A stretch of 64,000 bases of DNA from NCBI GenBank assembly GCA_902579215.1, contig CACHGH010000003.1, positions 20,868-84,867 of the forward strand, given 5' to 3'. Below are positions 33,419 through 59,897 of this stretch, piece after piece. Source of the stretch: an uncultured Pelagibacteraceae bacterium (lineage in GTDB: Bacteria; Pseudomonadota; Alphaproteobacteria; Pelagibacterales; Pelagibacteraceae). The notes beneath the pieces were generated by a model, which saw nothing but the letters and a program-made list of their open reading frames with translations, did not search any database and was not told where the DNA came from. The position numbers and the translations under genes are program-made. Within the stretch, counting starts at the first letter, position 1, and every line of letters begins with the position of its first letter.

Positions 33419-35512
33419 ATGGAAATAAAAAAAATAACTAACAATATCTTAAGTTTTATAATTAAGCGATTTATCGAAATATTTGGATTTTGCGTATCTT
33501 TATTGGGTCTAGCATTACTGGCATCGTTATTAACTTATTCACCTGAAGATCCAAATTTTATTTTTAGTGAGAATACTGAAATTAAAAATATTTTGGGATA
33601 TAGAGGAAGTTTTGTATCAGATTTCTTTTTTCAATCTATAGGTTTAATCTCTATAATCTTTGCTATTGGATTATTTTTTAATGGAATAATTATTTTATTA
33701 TCAAAAAAAGTTTTTATATTTGTAGAAAACTTATTTTATAGTATTTTATATTCAATTACTGGTTCATTATTTTTTTCAACTTACTACCAAAATTCTTTTT
33801 GGTTGTCTGTTAATGGCAATGGTGGATTCGTTGGCAATTTTTTAGAAAATACATTTTTTGCTTCCATAATTAATTTAAACAAAAATATTTCTTATTATAT
33901 TTTAATAATAATAATAATTATATTATTTTTGATCAGTATTAATTTTAAACCTAAGCTTTTTTTTAATTTATTAAAAACAATAATTAAATTTCCTTTCAGA
34001 AAGAAAGCTGAAAATTTAATTATTAAAGAAAATGATTATGATTCAGAAAATTTTGATAATAAAAATGAAAATTTAGTTCAGGAAAATTTACCTTTTGTTA
34101 AAAAACAAACTGATACAAAAAACATAAAATCAAAATTTGTTCTTCCAAGTATTGATTTATTAAAAGCTCCTTTGAAAAAGGAAAGAAAAAAAATAAATGA
34201 AAAAAATAATATTGATTCTGATTTTTTAGAAAAAATTCTTTTAGATTTTGGTGTTGAAGGAAAAATTAAAAAGGTTAGTCATGGACCTGTTGTTACCTTA
34301 AATGAATTTGAGCCAGCAGCAGGTATTAAAGTTTCTAAAATAATCAATCTATCAGATGATATAGCTCGAAATACAAGTTCAGAGTCTGCACGAATTTCTA
34401 CTATTCCTGGAAGAAGTACCATAGGAATAGAACTACCAAACTCTTCAAGAGAAAATGTTTTTTTAAGTGAAATAATTTCTCATAGTGATTTTTCAAATAA
34501 AGAAATAAAACTTCCTATAGCTTTAGGAAAAAGTATATCTGGAGTTCCTATCACCGGTGATCTTGACTCAATGCCCCATTTACTTATCGCTGGAACAACT
34601 GGTTCTGGAAAATCTGTATGTATTAATACAATTATCCTATCTCTTTTATATAGACATGGTCCTGATAAATGTAAGTTTATTTTAATTGATCCAAAAATGT
34701 TAGAACTTTCTACTTATGAAGGTATTCCTCATTTGTTGTGTCCAGTAATAACAGAGGCAAAAAAAGCTGCTTCAGTATTAGGTTGGGTAGTTAAAGAGAT
34801 GGAAAGCAGATACAGGCTTATGACTCGAGAGGGAGTTAAAAATATCAACGGCTATAATTCAAAACATAAACTTGCAATGCCTTACATTGTTGTGATTGTG
34901 GATGAAATGTCAGATTTAATGTTGGTAGCAGGAAAGGAGATTGAAAATTATATACAAAAATTATCTCAAATGGCAAGAGCTGCAGGAATACATATTATCA
35001 TGGCAACTCAAAGACCAAGCGTCGATGTAATAACGGGAACTATAAAAGCTAATTTTCCAACAAGAATATCTTTTCAAGTAACTTCAAAAATAGATAGCAG
35101 GACAATATTAGGTGAACAAGGTGCTGAACAATTACTAGGAAAGGGAGATATGCTTTATATGTCCTCAGCAAACAAAATAGTTAGAATACATGCGCCATTT
35201 GTCTCAGAAAACGAAATTGAAAAAATCAATAATTTTCTACGTTCTCAAGCTGAACCTGATTATGTAGATGAAATATTAAATTTTGCAGATGAAAAAGAAA
35301 GTTCAGAAAGTATTTCTGGCGGTAATGATAAAGATGAGCTTTACCAAGCAGCTTTAGATATAATTAAATCAGAAAGGAAGGCTTCAACATCTTTGTTACA
35401 AAGGAAATTGCAAATTGGTTATAATAGAGCTGCTAGAATAATTGACATGATGGAATTAGAGGGAGTTGTTAGTAAAGCAAATCATGTAGGCAAAAGAGAT
35501 GTGCTTAAATGA
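33419..35512 (+). CDS. ftsK: DNA translocase FtsK
   Basis: LIAGTTGSGKSVCINTIILSLLYRHGPDKCKFILIDPKMLELSTYEGIPHLLCPVIT; C-terminal gamma domain STSLLQRKLQIGYNRAARIIDMMELEGVV. Confidence 0.97.
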   Translation: MEIKKITNNILSFIIKRFIEIFGFCVSLLGLALLASLLTYSPEDPNFIFSENTEIKNILGYRGSFVSDFFFQSIGLISIIFAIGLFFNGIIILLSKKVFIFVENLFYSILYSITGSLFFSTYYQNSFWLSVNGNGGFVGNFLENTFFASIINLNKNISYYILIIIIIILFLISINFKPKLFFNLLKTIIKFPFRKKAENLIIKENDYDSENFDNKNENLVQENLPFVKKQTDTKNIKSKFVLPSIDLLKAPLKKERKKINEKNNIDSDFLEKILLDFGVEGKIKKVSHGPVVTLNEFEPAAGIKVSKIINLSDDIARNTSSESARISTIPGRSTIGIELPNSSRENVFLSEIISHSDFSNKEIKLPIALGKSISGVPITGDLDSMPHLLIAGTTGSGKSVCINTIILSLLYRHGPDKCKFILIDPKMLELSTYEGIPHLLCPVITEAKKAASVLGWVVKEMESRYRLMTREGVKNINGYNSKHKLAMPYIVVIVDEMSDLMLVAGKEIENYIQKLSQMARAAGIHIIMATQRPSVDVITGTIKANFPTRISFQVTSKIDSRTILGEQGAEQLLGKGDMLYMSSANKIVRIHAPFVSENEIEKINNFLRSQAEPDYVDEILNFADEKESSESISGGNDKDELYQAALDIIKSERKASTSLLQRKLQIGYNRAARIIDMMELEGVVSKANHVGKRDVLK

Positions 35513-44248: not shown

Positions 44249-44671
44249 ATGAGCACAGTTTTATTATTATTAATTGGTATTCCACTGTTAGAGATATATC
44301 TATTTATCAAAATTGGATCTCATATAGGTCCATTCAACACCATATCCTTAATTCTGATAACAGCATTCGTAGGTGTTATTTATGCTAGATACGAAGGCTT
44401 CAACACTTTGAAAGCGGGTATGTCACAGCTTATTAAAAATGAAATACCTATTTATGAAATAGTTTCTGGTGCAGCTTTGGCTTTTGCTGCATTACTTTTA
44501 ATATTGCCAGGATTTGCGACTGATATTTTAGGTTTTTTAATTATATTTCCTTTAACAAGAAAAATTATTTTTAAAAATATTTCTAAAAACTATAAAAGTA
44601 AAAATGTTAAAAATGAATTTATAAATGGTGAATTTGAAGATATAGATGATGAAAATGACAAAAAATTATAA
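44249..44671 (+). CDS. fxsA: FxsA family membrane protein
   Basis: LLLLIGIPLLEIYLFIKIGSHIGPFNTISLILITAFVG...LLILPGFATDILGFLIIFP. Confidence 0.92.
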   Translation: MSTVLLLLIGIPLLEIYLFIKIGSHIGPFNTISLILITAFVGVIYARYEGFNTLKAGMSQLIKNEIPIYEIVSGAALAFAALLLILPGFATDILGFLIIFPLTRKIIFKNISKNYKSKNVKNEFINGEFEDIDDENDKKL

Positions 44672-45077
44672 AATATTAACAGAATTTATTAAAGATATGT
44701 CTAGTGAAACTCCTGACATTGAAAGTTATATGTTTGTAAAAGAAAATATTTCTAAATATCATCTAGACATAGATATTAAATCTAAAACTATAAAAAACAA
44801 AATTATTGAAGTAAATACAACTTTAAAATTTCATGATAAAGAACTAAATGAAAAAAAATCTCATTTTGAAATAGTTTACGCATCTATAGTAAAAATAAAT
44901 GATGAAATTAAAAATAAAAAAGATTTAGAAAAAATTATACTGTGTGATGTTCAAAATGAAATCTACCCAAAATTAGAAAAGGCTTTTATAAACCTCATAA
45001 ACGACTCTGGATTTCCAGGTATTAAGATAGAAAAGAAAATCGATTTTAATAGACTTTATCAAGAAAAATTTAATTGA
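44646..45077 (+). CDS. secB: Protein-export chaperone SecB
   Basis: FIKDMSSETPDIESYMFVKENISKYHLDIDIKSK; position next to dnaQ. Confidence 0.88.
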   Translation: MMKMTKNYKILTEFIKDMSSETPDIESYMFVKENISKYHLDIDIKSKTIKNKIIEVNTTLKFHDKELNEKKSHFEIVYASIVKINDEIKNKKDLEKIILCDVQNEIYPKLEKAFINLINDSGFPGIKIEKKIDFNRLYQEKFN

Positions 45078-47103: not shown

Positions 47104-47684
47104 AAATTTTTTAGATACTCTTTTATTTTTTTAACTGGTAAACCCATTATCGTATTTTCATCTCCATCTATTTTAGAGAATAGATTTCTGCCCTCTCCTT
47201 CTATTTGATAGACATTGTAAGCATATAAATCTTTATCTGAAATTTTATTCAAATATTTTTTAATATCTTCCTCTGACATATGTTTCATTGTTAAAGCTGC
47301 TTTATCCGAATAATTCCATATCATCGAACCATTTTTAGATATACAAACAGAGCTGATTAAATAATGTTTTTTTCCATTTAGTTTTTTTAATATTGCTAAT
47401 GCCTCTTCTCTATTGATTGGTTTAGAAATAATTTCACCATTTAAATCAATGATACTATCTGCTCCTATTACTAATTCATTATCTTTTCTTTGACTAATTT
47501 TATTTGCCTTCAATTCTGCTAAGTTTTTAGAAATATCTATAGGAAGAGCCCCTTGTTTTGTCATGCTTTCTTTTACTGTTTCTTCATCCACATTTGATGG
47601 TTCTGAAATACAATTTATATTGTTTTTTTCTAATATCTTTTTCCTTACTTCGCTTTTTGAAGCAAGAATTATTTTTTTATTCAT
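47100..47684 (-). CDS. maf: Maf family nucleotide pyrophosphatase
   Basis: IILASKSEVRKKILEKNNI; LVIGADSIIDLNGEIISKP. Confidence 0.93.
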   Translation of the reverse strand: MNKKIILASKSEVRKKILEKNNINCISEPSNVDEETVKESMTKQGALPIDISKNLAELKANKISQRKDNELVIGADSIIDLNGEIISKPINREEALAILKKLNGKKHYLISSVCISKNGSMIWNYSDKAALTMKHMSEEDIKKYLNKISDKDLYAYNVYQIEGEGRNLFSKIDGDENTIMGLPVKKIKEYLKNL

Positions 47685-48501
47685 TTTCTTTAGAAATTTC
47701 GTATATTTTAATTACTGAGGCAGCCGTTTCCTCGACTGACTTTCTTGTTACATCTATCGTAGGCCAATTATATTTCTTAAATGTTTTTTTAGCACTTTCT
47801 ACTTCAATAGAAATTTTATCTAAATTTATATAATCTATAGTTTCAGTCTCTTTTAATGTATTCATCCTATTTTTTCTAATATCAAGTAACCTTTGAGGTT
47901 CACTTGTTAAACCTACCACACATGAAATTTTTGGGTTTTTCCTTAAAAGGGAAGGTATAGAATTTTCATTTACGAGAGGAATGTTTGATGTTCTTAAGCC
48001 TCTGTTAGCCAAGTATATCGAAGTAGGAGTTTTACTGGTTCTACTTACTCCAAGTAATATTATATCTGACTTACCTATATCACCTATAGAATTACCGTCA
48101 TCATGATTCATTGTAAATTGTATTGCCTCAATCCTATTATAATATTCTTCATCTAAAACGTGTTGTCCGCTTGGTATATGAGAAGCTTCTTGATTAAGTA
48201 GTTTCGAAAAGCTTAATATTAAATCACCTAATGCTCCAAAACATGGAATTTTAAGTTTATTAGCCTCTTCTGCTAAAAATTTTGCAAGTTTATTATCAAC
48301 AACGGTATATAATATTATTGAGTTTTTATTCTTTTTTGTAATATCTAAAATCTTTGTAATTTGATTTTGAGTACGTGTGAAAGAATATTGATGAGTTTTA
48401 TAATTAAAATTTTTAAATTGTGCTTTTAAAGCTAAAAAAATTCTATCTAATGTTTCACCAGTAGAGTCTGATATTAAATAAATTTGATATGTATTACTCA
48501 T
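47677..48501 (-). CDS. Pyruvate,phosphate/water dikinase regulatory protein (DUF299 kinase/pyrophosphorylase)
   Basis: IYLISDSTGETLDRIFLALKAQF; ILLGVSRTSKTPTSIYLANRGLRTSNIPLV. Confidence 0.95.
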   Translation of the reverse strand: MSNTYQIYLISDSTGETLDRIFLALKAQFKNFNYKTHQYSFTRTQNQITKILDITKKNKNSIILYTVVDNKLAKFLAEEANKLKIPCFGALGDLILSFSKLLNQEASHIPSGQHVLDEEYYNRIEAIQFTMNHDDGNSIGDIGKSDIILLGVSRTSKTPTSIYLANRGLRTSNIPLVNENSIPSLLRKNPKISCVVGLTSEPQRLLDIRKNRMNTLKETETIDYINLDKISIEVESAKKTFKKYNWPTIDVTRKSVEETAASVIKIYEISKENE

Positions 48502-48765
48502 TAATAAAGTGTTTATTTTGTTGTATAATTATGATTATTTTTATTAGTTAGAATGTTTTTAATAAAAATATGTAAAACTTTAATTTTATTAACATAATTA
48601 AACATGTTTATAACTAATATACATTTAATCTAATAAAATTAAATATATTCATAAAAGCCCATTATTTTATGTATAAATATTGAATAAACTGTTTATAAAA
48701 AGTAATACTCTTTATTCACATAATATATAACTAATACTAAGATATATAATTAATTATTATAATAT
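48502..48765. other. Candidate chromosomal replication origin (oriC)
   Basis: 264-bp divergent spacer, 33 G/C counted by eye (~12.5% GC); exact TTATTCACA DnaA-box-like site at 48712-48720 and one-mismatch-type TGTTTATAA sites at 48605-48613 and 48690-48698; flanked by hemE as in other alphaproteobacterial origins. Confidence 0.68.
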
Positions 48766-49767
48766 ATGAGTCCTATTAAAAACTGCATCTTAAATAAAAA
48801 AACTGATAATACACCTATATGGATAATGAGGCAGGCTGGGAGGTATTTACCTGAATTTAGAGAGATAAGAAAAGTAAACCCAGATTTTATTAAATTGTGT
48901 CTTAATGAAAATATTACTCCAGAAATTACCTTACAACCACTTAAAAGATATGAATTAGATGCAGCTATAATTTTTTCTGATATTTTAATGTTACCTTATG
49001 GTATAGGACAAAAAGTTGAGTTTCAAAAGGGTTTCGGCCCTATACTTAGTGATCTTAATTTAGATTTTATAAATAAAACTAGTGAGGATATATTTACAAA
49101 AAAATTAGATCCAATTTATAAAGCAATAGAAATAGTTAGTAGGGACAAAATTATAACTAATAAAGATTTAATATGTTTTGTTGGAGCGCCCTGGACGTTA
49201 TTAGTTTATATGTTAAATAAACAATCTCCAAAAAAGGAACTTAATAAAAAATTATTAGAAGATAAAGTTTTTATAGATGAATTATTATTAATTATTGATA
49301 AATTTTTAAAGATACATATTCACAACCAAATTAAGAGTGGGGCAACCATTATCCAAATTTTTGACAGTTGGGCCGGACTAGTAAATAAAAAAGATTTAGA
49401 AAAATTTATTTATAAACCAACTATTAGTCTTATTAAATTTATAAAATCATTAAATACTCCAGTAATTTGTTTTCCGAGAAATGTTGAAAATTACAAGGAA
49501 TATGTAGAAACAGTAATGCCTGATGCTGTAAATATTGATTATAATGTAGATCCACAAAATATTTTAAAAAATATAAATATTCCAGTACAGGGAGGTTTAG
49601 ATCCACAAATACTTTTAACAGATAAAGAAAATTTAAAAAAAAATGCTTTAAAATATTTAGAAATTTTTAAAGATCATCCTTATATATTTAATCTTGGACA
49701 TGGTGTGCTTCCTACTACAGATCCAAATATGATGGACTACTTAGTTAAATTAGTGAAAGATTTTTAA
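48766..49767 (+). CDS. hemE: Uroporphyrinogen decarboxylase
   Basis: PIWIMRQAGRYLPEFREIR; AAIIFSDILMLPYGIG; FNLGHGVLPTTDP. Confidence 0.98.
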   Translation: MSPIKNCILNKKTDNTPIWIMRQAGRYLPEFREIRKVNPDFIKLCLNENITPEITLQPLKRYELDAAIIFSDILMLPYGIGQKVEFQKGFGPILSDLNLDFINKTSEDIFTKKLDPIYKAIEIVSRDKIITNKDLICFVGAPWTLLVYMLNKQSPKKELNKKLLEDKVFIDELLLIIDKFLKIHIHNQIKSGATIIQIFDSWAGLVNKKDLEKFIYKPTISLIKFIKSLNTPVICFPRNVENYKEYVETVMPDAVNIDYNVDPQNILKNINIPVQGGLDPQILLTDKENLKKNALKYLEIFKDHPYIFNLGHGVLPTTDPNMMDYLVKLVKDF

Positions 49768-52533: not shown

Positions 52534-53361
52534 CTATATATATTTTAATTCTTTCATTGTTTTATTGAATAACTTTTCCAAGTTATTTATTACTTCAGTG
52601 TCACATTTTTCCCATTGCTTTGATTTTCCTACATTAAAAAATGGTTGATTGTTTTTATTATATAAATTTTCTTTAAAACCAACTTTTTGTTCAAGTTTTT
52701 TAAGATTAGAAAAATTTACCATTTCTATACACTCTTTTATTCTGTCATCGTTGATTTCCAAATCACATATTTTATTTAAATATTTAACAATTCCTTTAAA
52801 ACAATCGAATGTGTTAGACAACAAATACTCATACTTGACTATAAGTGCACTACCATAAGGGAAATTTTTCCATGAATTATAATGCTGACCCCAGTCTCCT
52901 CTGACCTCGCCAGCTAAATTTGATTTTGATAAATCTAAGGCACCCATATCATCTTTTGTGCTCATCATTTTTAATGTTTCATTGAGTGGTAAGTTTAAAT
53001 ATTTTGAGTAAGAAATTAAAACATCTCTTGGATCCCTAACTAAATAAATTGCACCTAAGGTATTTTCTTTATTAGTAAAAGGGAAATTTTTATATGTTCC
53101 TAGAGCACTATGAGTTTTTAAAAAATTTATTTTATTATTGAGGTTAATATATTCTTGTGCTGGAATCCATGATTCTGCAACTTCATCAAAATTAACTGGT
53201 TTATTACCAACTTGAAGAAATTGATTAAACTTAGGAAATAAAGGTATTTTTTTTAGTATATCAAATTCAAACTCTTTTTTTTTTGAATAGATATATGAAC
53301 ATAAAAAAGATCTAACCCAAGTATTTCCACTCTTTGGATATGAAGCTAGCCAAATAATCAT
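52534..53361 (-). CDS. Sulfotransferase domain protein (paralog 1)
   Basis: MIIWLASYPKSGNTWVRSFL (5'-PSB loop), IYLVRDPRDVLISYSKYLNL (3'-PB). Confidence 0.88.
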   Translation of the reverse strand: MIIWLASYPKSGNTWVRSFLCSYIYSKKKEFEFDILKKIPLFPKFNQFLQVGNKPVNFDEVAESWIPAQEYINLNNKINFLKTHSALGTYKNFPFTNKENTLGAIYLVRDPRDVLISYSKYLNLPLNETLKMMSTKDDMGALDLSKSNLAGEVRGDWGQHYNSWKNFPYGSALIVKYEYLLSNTFDCFKGIVKYLNKICDLEINDDRIKECIEMVNFSNLKKLEQKVGFKENLYNKNNQPFFNVGKSKQWEKCDTEVINNLEKLFNKTMKELKYI

Positions 53362-53373
53362 TATTTAATTTAA

Positions 53374-54222
53374 TTATATATATTTTAATTCCTTCATTTC
53401 TTTTTGAAATTTATTAACAATTTCTTCCACTAAACTACCATCTAAAACTTTATTCCAGTCATTGTTAGGACCTAAGTTAAAGAATTTTTTACTATTACCT
53501 GTTATTTTATTTTTAATACCTTCTTTAAACAATCCCTTATTTTCCATTTTTTTTAAACTTTCAAAAGATGTTGTATTTATTACATTCTCGATTTTTTTGT
53601 CACTAATATCTACGTTAAAGAATTTCTTCAAATATATTGTAATTTTTTCAACTTGTTCTTTTGGGTTAATTAATAGATCTTCATAACGAATTAATAAAAA
53701 ATTTTTTTTTGTATTTTTCCACGAATTATAATGGGCACCCCAAGATCCTATTAGAGTTAAAAAATTTGTATTACTTGAATTATTATCTAAATTTGTTCCT
53801 ATAGCCTGGTCATGAGAAAATAACATTTTCTTTGCTAGTTCATAGCTATTAATAGAAAAATGATACTTTAAGGAAGTAATTACATTTCTAGGATCTCTTA
53901 CAATATAAATTACTCCGGCTGTATTTTCATTGTTTGTAAATGAATCATTGCCAATTTTGCAGTTAACATGGTGAGTTTTAAAAAACTTAATTTTTCCATC
54001 AAGATTAATTTTTTCTTGTGAGCTAATCCAATTTTTTTTAATTTGTTGAATATTATGAAAATTAGAAACTAAACCTAAAAATTGTTTTCTTACTGGATAT
54101 TGTTCAATCATTTCCATCTTCTTAAAATCATGAGAACCATCTTGAGAATATAACAAAGATGAAATTATAGACCTCACCCATGTGTTTCCACTTTTTGGAT
54201 ATGAAGATAGCCAAATTATCAT
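53374..54222 (-). CDS. Sulfotransferase domain protein (paralog 2); start likely MIIWLSSYPKSG rather than 54249
   Basis: MIIWLSSYPKSGNTWVRSII, VIYIVRDPRNVITSLKYHF; collinear with paralog 1. Confidence 0.87.
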   Translation of the reverse strand: MIIWLSSYPKSGNTWVRSIISSLLYSQDGSHDFKKMEMIEQYPVRKQFLGLVSNFHNIQQIKKNWISSQEKINLDGKIKFFKTHHVNCKIGNDSFTNNENTAGVIYIVRDPRNVITSLKYHFSINSYELAKKMLFSHDQAIGTNLDNNSSNTNFLTLIGSWGAHYNSWKNTKKNFLLIRYEDLLINPKEQVEKITIYLKKFFNVDISDKKIENVINTTSFESLKKMENKGLFKEGIKNKITGNSKKFFNLGPNNDWNKVLDGSLVEEIVNKFQKEMKELKYI

Positions 54223-54292
54223 TATTTTTTTATTATATCTTTTGTTCATAATTAGATTAACAAAAATATTTAATTCTATGTATAATAAATCT

Positions 54293-57611: not shown

Positions 57612-58249
57612 TGGAAGATAATTTTAATAATTATTCATTACTAAATAAAATAAACGTTTCACGTGAAACATATTTGGACTTTGAATCATATATTTCTATG
57701 CTTTTAGATAAAAATCAGCATATAAACATAATTAGTAAAAAAACAGCCAAAATCAACATTATTAGAGAAAGACACATAATAGATTCAGCACAAGCTATTG
57801 ATTTTGTTGATTTAAATAGTAATACAACCTATGATTTAGGAAGTGGTGGAGGCATGCCAGGTATTGTTATTGCAATTATATTTAAAAATTTAAAGAAGAG
57901 CATGCAGTTCACCTTGTATGAAAAGAGCCACCATAAGAGTAAGTTTTTAAAGGAGGTATCAAAAAAATTAAAGCTTAATACCAAAGTTATTCAAGAAGAT
58001 ATTTTTAAATCAACAAAACTAAAATCAGGAACAATTTTAGCAAGAGCATTCAAACCTTTACCTCTAGTTTTAGAATTAGTTCATAAAAATTTTAGTACTT
58101 ATAAAAATTTAGTTATTTTTATGGGGAAAAATGGAAAACAAGTATTGAAGGAAGCTTCCAAGAACTGGGATTTTGAGTATAAGGAAAAGAGGAGCATTAC
58201 TAGTGAAGATTCTTTTTTATTGAACATAAAGAATATAAAAAAAAAATGA
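57611..58249 (+). CDS. rsmG: 16S rRNA (guanine527-N7)-methyltransferase (GidB)
   Basis: NVSRETYLDFESYISMLLDKNQHINIISKKT; YDLGSGGGMPGIVIAI. Confidence 0.95.
   Translation: MEDNFNNYSLLNKINVSRETYLDFESYISMLLDKNQHINIISKKTAKINIIRERHIIDSAQAIDFVDLNSNTTYDLGSGGGMPGIVIAIIFKNLKKSMQFTLYEKSHHKSKFLKEVSKKLKLNTKVIQEDIFKSTKLKSGTILARAFKPLPLVLELVHKNFSTYKNLVIFMGKNGKQVLKEASKNWDFEYKEKRSITSEDSFLLNIKNIKKK
57656..57669. promoter_or_regulatory. parS centromere-like site
   Basis: Perfect 14-bp palindrome GTTTCACGTGAAAC, extended CGTTTCACGTGAAACA (one mismatch to canonical TGTTTCACGTGAAACA), inside rsmG and just upstream of parA/parB. Confidence 0.93.
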
Positions 58250-59049
58250 CACAGACACAAATAATATCAGTAATAAACCAAAAGGGTGGAGTTGGAAAAA
58301 CAACAACAGTTATTAATTTGGCAGCAGGACTTGCTCTTCAAAATAAAAAAATATTAGTTGTTGATTTAGATCCACAAGGCAATGCAACAACTGGATTAGG
58401 ATTATCAAATTCAGAGGACTCTGACAAAACTATTTATACAGTTTTAAATGGAACAAGAATAATATCTGATGTTTTAAAAAAAACGCAATTCAAAAATTTA
58501 GATTTGATATCATCCAATGTAGACCTCTCGGGTCTTGAAGTCGAAACAGCTGGTGATAGTAAGAGAGCATTTATTCTAAAGGATCAAATAATGGCTTATT
58601 TAAAGGATTCTAGTTCTATATACGATTACATATTAATTGATTGTCCGCCATCTTTGAGTTTATTAACAGTGATGGCCTTGGTGGCTTCAAACACCTTAAT
58701 TGTTCCTCTCCAAACAGAATTTTTTGCTTTAGAGGGTCTTACACAGTTAATGAAAACAATTGATAGAATTAAAGTCAATTTAAATTCAAAACTAAAAATT
58801 GAAGGAATTCTTTTAACTATGTATGATAAAAGAAATAAACTTTCTTCTCAGGTTGAGAAAGAAGCTAGAGACTATTTTAAAAACAAAGTTTATTTAACTG
58901 TTATCCCACGAAATGTTAGGTTGTCTGAAGCACCATCACATGGAGTGCCAGTTTTGATTTACGATAAATCGTGTCCAGGAAGTAAATCTTATTATAGTTT
59001 CACAAAAGAATTTTTAGAAAAACAAAAATCATATGATAGTGCAGCTTGA
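58246..59049 (+). CDS. parA: Chromosome partitioning ATPase ParA
   Basis: ISVINQKGGVGKTTTVINLAAGLA; LVVDLDPQGNATTGLG; LIDCPPSLSLLTVMAL. Confidence 0.97.
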   Translation: MTQTQIISVINQKGGVGKTTTVINLAAGLALQNKKILVVDLDPQGNATTGLGLSNSEDSDKTIYTVLNGTRIISDVLKKTQFKNLDLISSNVDLSGLEVETAGDSKRAFILKDQIMAYLKDSSSIYDYILIDCPPSLSLLTVMALVASNTLIVPLQTEFFALEGLTQLMKTIDRIKVNLNSKLKIEGILLTMYDKRNKLSSQVEKEARDYFKNKVYLTVIPRNVRLSEAPSHGVPVLIYDKSCPGSKSYYSFTKEFLEKQKSYDSAA

Positions 59050-59897
59050 TGGATACTACTAAAATTAAAAAAGGATTAGGTAGAGGTCTTTCTTCATTAA
59101 TTGGAGACACTAAAGTTGAAACAAATATTAACAAATTACCGATTAGTGACTTAACAAGAAATAAATTCCAACCACGAAAGAATTTTAATAAAGAAAATCT
59201 TGACGAACTCACAAATTCTATAAAAGAAAGAGGTATTATTCAGCCAATAATTGTTAGAAAATCAAAGGAAAATAGCTCAAAATATGAAATAATTGCTGGT
59301 GAGAGAAGGTGGCTTGCTGCCCAGAATGCAGGCTTACATGAGGTTCCTATAGTTATTACAGATGTTGATGATTTAAAATCACTAGAGTTCGCTATAGTTG
59401 AGAACGTTCAAAGAAATGATCTTAATGTTATTGAGGAAGCCGAAGGTTATAAACGTTTGATAAATGAGTTTTCATACGATCAAGAAAATGTAGCTAAATT
59501 TATTGGAAAAAGCAGGAGTCATGTAGCTAATTGTTTAAGGTTACTGGCACTTCCTAAAGAAGTTCTAGAGCTAATTGAGAATAATAAACTATCACCTGGT
59601 CATGCTAAAGTTTTAGTTGGATTAGAAAACTCAATATTTCTAGCTAAGAAAATAATAGAAAAAAAATTATCAGTAAGACAAGCAGAAAATTTAGCTAGGA
59701 TTTTCAAAACTAACAGGACAGCAAGAATTAATAAAAAAGATCCAAATTTAAATCAATTGGAAAACTCTTTAAGAGAAAAGATAGGACTTAATGTTCATAT
59801 TAAAAACAAAAAAAACAACTCAGGTTCGATACTTTTTGAATACAAAGGTTTAGATCAATTAAACAAACTTATCGAAATTATTAAATCTCACTATTAA
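59046..59897 (+). CDS. parB: Chromosome partitioning protein ParB
   Basis: KKGLGRGLSSLIGD; NKFQPRKNFNKENLDELTNSIKERGIIQPIIVR; YEIIAGERRWLAAQNAGL. Confidence 0.97.
   Translation: MMDTTKIKKGLGRGLSSLIGDTKVETNINKLPISDLTRNKFQPRKNFNKENLDELTNSIKERGIIQPIIVRKSKENSSKYEIIAGERRWLAAQNAGLHEVPIVITDVDDLKSLEFAIVENVQRNDLNVIEEAEGYKRLINEFSYDQENVAKFIGKSRSHVANCLRLLALPKEVLELIENNKLSPGHAKVLVGLENSIFLAKKIIEKKLSVRQAENLARIFKTNRTARINKKDPNLNQLENSLREKIGLNVHIKNKKNNSGSILFEYKGLDQLNKLIEIIKSHY

Follow-up and report, generated by a model that had tools for sequence, protein, structure and literature searches.

The chromosomal replication origin of Caulobacter lies between hemE and COG1806 and is the one alphaproteobacterial origin that has been called experimentally identified (PMC1914354). 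The Rickettsia origin has been assigned to the same hemE-COG1806 place (PMC1914354). A rule-based method put origins at dnaA when dnaA was located near the skew switch (PMC2031905). For the basal unwinding system (BUS) of Bacillus subtilis and other bacteria, the pattern has been given as a DnaA box with two or fewer mismatches to TTATCCACA, a gap of 16 nt or less, and at least three NAN trios (PMC8287927). Our literature search, which covered few subscription journals, found no paper in which the SAR11 or Pelagibacter origin was mapped or dissected.

We analyzed a 64-kb stretch of DNA (the window) from a SAR11 bacterium, in which a sequence-only reading had picked out the spacer between ppsR and hemE as a candidate replication origin. 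That proposal is supported by conserved, clustered DnaA boxes, a parS site, the flanking gene pair, retention of the spacer in a sister family, and GC skew. The location of the spacer, its sequence anatomy, conservation, and clustering of sites, and its agreement with the skew axis were computed here. From these features we conclude, with a probability of roughly 0.94, that the spacer is the DnaA-dependent chromosomal oriC of this bacterium. An origin between hemE and COG1806 is of an already known kind, and what is added here is a concrete, base-level predicted anatomy.

Results

The spacer (48502..48765; no strand assigned) separates ppsR (COG1806/DUF299; 47677..48501, minus strand; PF03618, 1.7e-85) on its left from hemE (48766..49767, plus strand; PF01208, 3.9e-81) on its right, and both genes are transcribed divergently away from it. 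The sequence-only reading had noted that the Caulobacter and Rickettsia origins adjoin hemE, and the hemE/COG1806 pair of those origins (PMC1914354) indeed bounds the SAR11 spacer; its location is therefore the expected site, predicted by homology. The further claim that genes point away from the spacer held for ppsR and hemE, whereas the wider polarity is only a tendency, with 52534-54249 and 44249-45077 opposed to it. The first of these segments, between rho and mnmE, holds a tandem gene pair that opposes the rightward operon around it; both genes have a PKSGNTW motif, which by eye is sulfotransferase-like.

The length and composition given earlier for the spacer were correct to the base, with 33 G/C among its 264 nt (12.5% GC). 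Among the ORF-free gaps of the window it ranks first in length (the runner-up is 174 nt), and a scan of the window showed that no other 264-nt stretch has a higher AT content or a lower duplex stability. Its AT content exceeds the genome average, as is the case for the hemE-COG1806 oriC regions of alphaproteobacteria. No Rfam family was found within the spacer.

Four sites that match the DnaA-box-like pattern TTATNMACA are present in the window spacer compared to 0.2 expected, and 0 of 2000 dinucleotide shuffles reached four; a lone TTATNCACA by itself would give P = 0.03. The predicted main DnaA box, TTATTCACA (48712..48720, plus strand), occurs only once on the plus strand across the 64 kb. 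Two putative weak boxes are on the minus strand: TGTTTATAA (TTATAAACA) at 48690..48698, which starts 22 nt before the main box, and TGTTTATAA at 48605..48613. These three sites had been reported by the sequence-only reading and were all confirmed at their positions, and a fourth box-like site, the putative weak box TTATTAACA (48586..48594, plus strand), can be added to them. Within the window, a cluster of at least four boxes is found at the spacer only.

All congener loci that hold both ppsR and hemE have the spacer between the two divergent genes. The 97 distinct congener spacers are 260-292 nt long with 12-21% GC, and their median pairwise identity is 65% (58% to the window). Box counts were based on 107 congener spacers, and 17 divergent ones were treated as independent for statistics. 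An alignment of the spacer across relatives had been suggested as a search for conserved boxes, and its best-conserved 9-mer turned out to be TTATTCACA at 48712-48720, which is exact in 69 of the 107 spacers and has at most one mismatch in 91. Next in conservation were the TTATTAACA block (48586), at whose position a forward box is found in 54/107 spacers, and the TGTTTATAA block (48690); the TGTTTATAA site at 48605 is poorly conserved.

In the 17 divergent spacers, 52 TTATNMACA sites were observed compared to 3.3 expected, and this clustering beyond chance is shared with the hemE-COG1806 oriC of alphaproteobacteria. Two complete congener genomes, G012 (1,343,202 bp) and G082 (1,437,930 bp), both relatives of the window genome, were used for whole-genome tests. 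The G082 spacer is the sole 282-nt window with at least four TTATNMACA sites in that genome, and the G012 spacer contains three, which merely equals the maximum of that genome. Box positions that recur across genomes are, counted from hemE, 50 and 198 nt for forward boxes and 83, 94, and 274 nt for reverse boxes. The reverse boxes proximal to the main box start 33 and 44 nt before it in relatives and 22 nt before it in the window; these offsets are multiples of 11, so that the boxes would share one face of the helix. An alignment with 1J1V, the DnaA-box complex of E. coli, showed that domain IV of SAR11 DnaA keeps the RDHTT motif intact.

Directly past the main box lies the 40-mer with the lowest stability in the spacer, 48721-48760, which ranks in the top 0.02% of the window. 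It is part of a predicted unwinding element (48721..48765; no strand assigned), which abuts the hemE start codon. Elsewhere, at 33883-33926, the window reaches its lowest stability over 30-40 nt, in a stretch slightly weaker than the predicted origin melting element. DnaA-trio-like triplets, CTA ATA CTA (3'-GAT TAT GAT-5' on the other strand), are located 10 nt past the main box at 48731..48739 on the plus strand. Together, TTATTCACA, the 10-nt gap, and CTA ATA CTA match the BUS pattern; because this rule alone is a weak test in AT-rich DNA, we placed the weight on conservation. In 16 divergent spacers aligned on the box, the frequency of A at successive third positions was 0.94, 0.88, 0.94, 1.00, 0.88, and 0.75, compared to about 0.3 elsewhere. 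The period-3 conservation of the triplets in these 16 spacers gave P = 1.4e-4 in a column permutation test, whose 16-column range was picked post hoc with the data already seen. In-frame stops, and distances between box and hemE that vary from 38 to 42 nt, ruled out a coding origin of the period-3 signal.

The sister family f2 belongs to the same order. PF03618 (ppsR) had no match in 7/7 of its genomes tested, and a 271-280-nt spacer is retained between maf and hemE. The f2 family thus lost ppsR yet kept the spacer, which implies that the spacer outlived one of its flanking genes. The f2 spacers end with TCACAGG..., CTA repeats (as many as four consecutive ones), and a TATATATA tract that abuts hemE, and TGTGGATAA or TTATCCACC is present in some of them. 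The trios are cleaner in f2 than in the genus. Among f2 loci L251-L254 and L256-L259, several have a dyad-like TCCACCTGTGGATAA, which consists of two facing DnaA boxes, upstream of hemE. A typical Pelagibacter ppsR-hemE locus was also found on a MAG contig labelled Flavobacteriaceae (UltraPac_3515_E_bin_84), a label that is probably a binning error.

The spacer does separate divergent genes, and a TACWAT sequence about 25 nt before hemE is conserved in the genus, so that the whole spacer might be read as merely a divergent ppsR/hemE promoter region, with TTCACA as its -35 and TACWAT as its -10 element. We consider this explanation very unlikely. The gap of 14 nt between TTCACA and TACWAT is short for a sigma-70 promoter, and conservation extends beyond TTCACA to the whole 9-mer TTATTCACA and also to boxes distant from hemE. 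Moreover, the length of the spacer is maintained in f2 without ppsR, where CTA repeats occupy the place that trio-like triplets and TACWAT have in the genus. A hemE promoter may nevertheless overlap the origin.

CtrA sites (TTAA-N7-TTAA), a feature of Caulobacter-type, CtrA-regulated origins, were not found in the window spacer, and they were not significantly enriched in 17 spacers (9 compared to 5.1 expected; P = 0.08). The missing CtrA consensus agrees with a report that Pelagibacter has no ctrA ortholog (PMC2877005). The IHF consensus, another feature of that origin type, had no match in the window spacer and was found in a minority of congener spacers. A homolog of CcrM has been reported in SAR11 (PMC3973325), and its GANTC site is present in just 1/107 spacers; avoidance of GANTC was dropped as a candidate feature because it was not significant over 17 independent spacers, once relatedness was corrected (P = 0.15).

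A GC-skew minimum far from the locus had been named by the sequence-only reading as the result that would speak against an origin here. In the two complete congeners, the cumulative GC-skew minimum was 28.9 kb (30.8 kb when detrended) and 29.3 kb from hemE, a distance of about 2%, and the maximum was nearly opposite the spacer, at about half the circle. Like other hemE-COG1806 origins, the spacer is thus at the GC-skew switch, here to within 29-31 kb and at low resolution; the minimum itself is not at the spacer, the trough is flat over a width of about 100 kb, and the skew in large part tracks gene orientation. With gene strand controlled, the origin position predicted from third-position GC skew was 4.5 kb from the spacer in G082 and 46 kb from it in G012. 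If the spacer is taken as the origin, the leading strand carries about 64% of genes. In published metagenome data, coverage followed a single V-shape (PMC9589681). AT skew was uninformative, as its best positions were far from the spacer and from dnaA alike.

The expectation that parS and parAB lie close to the origin was borne out. A parS-like site, CGTTTCACGTGAAACA (57655..57670; no strand assigned), is inside the start of rsmG and has one mismatch, compared to four for the next best site in the window, and parA and parB follow at 58246..59897 on the plus strand (AAA_31, 1.2e-61; ParB_N, 5.2e-37; HTH_ParB, 2.7e-34). With at most one mismatch allowed, parS is unique in each genome, and its distance to hemE is about 7 kb in the two relatives and 8.9 kb in the window. 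Although just 60-62 kb separate dnaA and hemE in the two complete relatives, and in G082 the skew minimum is midway between the two genes, an origin that adjoins dnaA, as in earlier rule-based predictions, is extremely improbable, because the 700 nt upstream of dnaA contain no DnaA boxes (TTATNMACA) in G012 and G082, third-position GC skew puts dnaA 4.1 and 3.7 log-likelihood units below the optimum compared to 1.4 and 1.2 for the spacer, and parS is close to hemE.

At the terminus, the skew maximum of G082 (159,092) is within the longest gene-free stretch of that genome and adjoins TAGTACAACTGAAGGGTGAAT, a 21-mer that is also found in G012, 3 kb from the skew maximum. A conserved motif, TACAACTRAAGGGTGAA, is located in the gene-free stretch at the GC-skew maximum (G012:C1:618701-618721; G082:C1:159068-159088; G000:C2:28147-28165), and the shorter arc between motif and spacer is 47.9% and 47.7% of the circle in the two complete relatives. 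In a search across genomes that allowed two mismatches, all 25 of the 25 motif-bearing genomes had a tyrosine recombinase gene on the motif contig, about 0.9-1.8 kb away and in matching orientation. The linked gene encodes a single 318-aa tyrosine recombinase; it is the sole tyrosine recombinase gene in G012, and G091 of family f2 had two strong matches. A search for an E. coli-like dif gave no good match. The motif and the lone recombinase may form a one-recombinase Xer/dif system for chromosome-dimer resolution in the Pelagibacteraceae; plain synteny is another possible cause of their linkage.

Discussion

By analogy with the known DnaA mechanism, we infer how DnaA binding, unwinding, helicase loading, and segregation would proceed at the ppsR-hemE origin. 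DnaA would bind the strong box TTATTCACA and the nearby weak TTATNAACA boxes, and the strong box would guide DnaA onto the trio-like triplets of the strand opposite the box. DnaA on these triplets would open the AT-rich element that separates the box from the hemE start codon, where the helicase would then be loaded. Two forks would depart, one past hemE-parAB and the other past ppsR-maf, and ParB bound to parS 9 kb away would segregate the new origins.

SAR11 bacteria are among the most abundant cells of the ocean, and their growth in situ is estimated from origin-to-terminus read depth. An origin specified to the base, with predicted DnaA boxes and a predicted opening site, would give such estimates a fixed anchor, and replicating plasmids could be designed from it for bacteria that have few genetic tools. 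It would also represent a reduced example of a hemE origin, one that appears to lack CtrA sites.

The candidate SAR11 origin resembles Caulobacter crescentus Cori and Rickettsia prowazekii oriC in its flanking genes, its AT-rich spacer, and its several DnaA boxes (PMC1914354). It differs from them in the length of the spacer, which is 264-282 nt in SAR11 and more than 400 nt in these bacteria, and in having no clear CtrA or IHF sites. The hemE origins of Wolbachia and Ehrlichia likewise retain the hemE flank, are AT-rich, and contain DnaA boxes; however, their other flank is COG1253 (PMC1914354), compared to COG1806 here and maf in family f2. With the BUS of Bacillus subtilis and others, the SAR11 spacer shares the order of a DnaA box, a short gap, repeated triplets, and an unwinding region (PMC8287927). 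In contrast to the BUS, the spacer is not beside dnaA, and this genus keeps the third base of the triplets (A on the box strand) more than the middle base. Deviant trios were anticipated by the authors of the BUS (PMC8287927), and a tentative suggestion, which we regard as doubtful, is that the DnaA-trio code of Pelagibacter-type origins is deviant: the third base of each trio (T on the strand bound by DnaA) would be invariant in place of the middle adenine, and the hemE origin that contains these trios would be minimal and CtrA-free.
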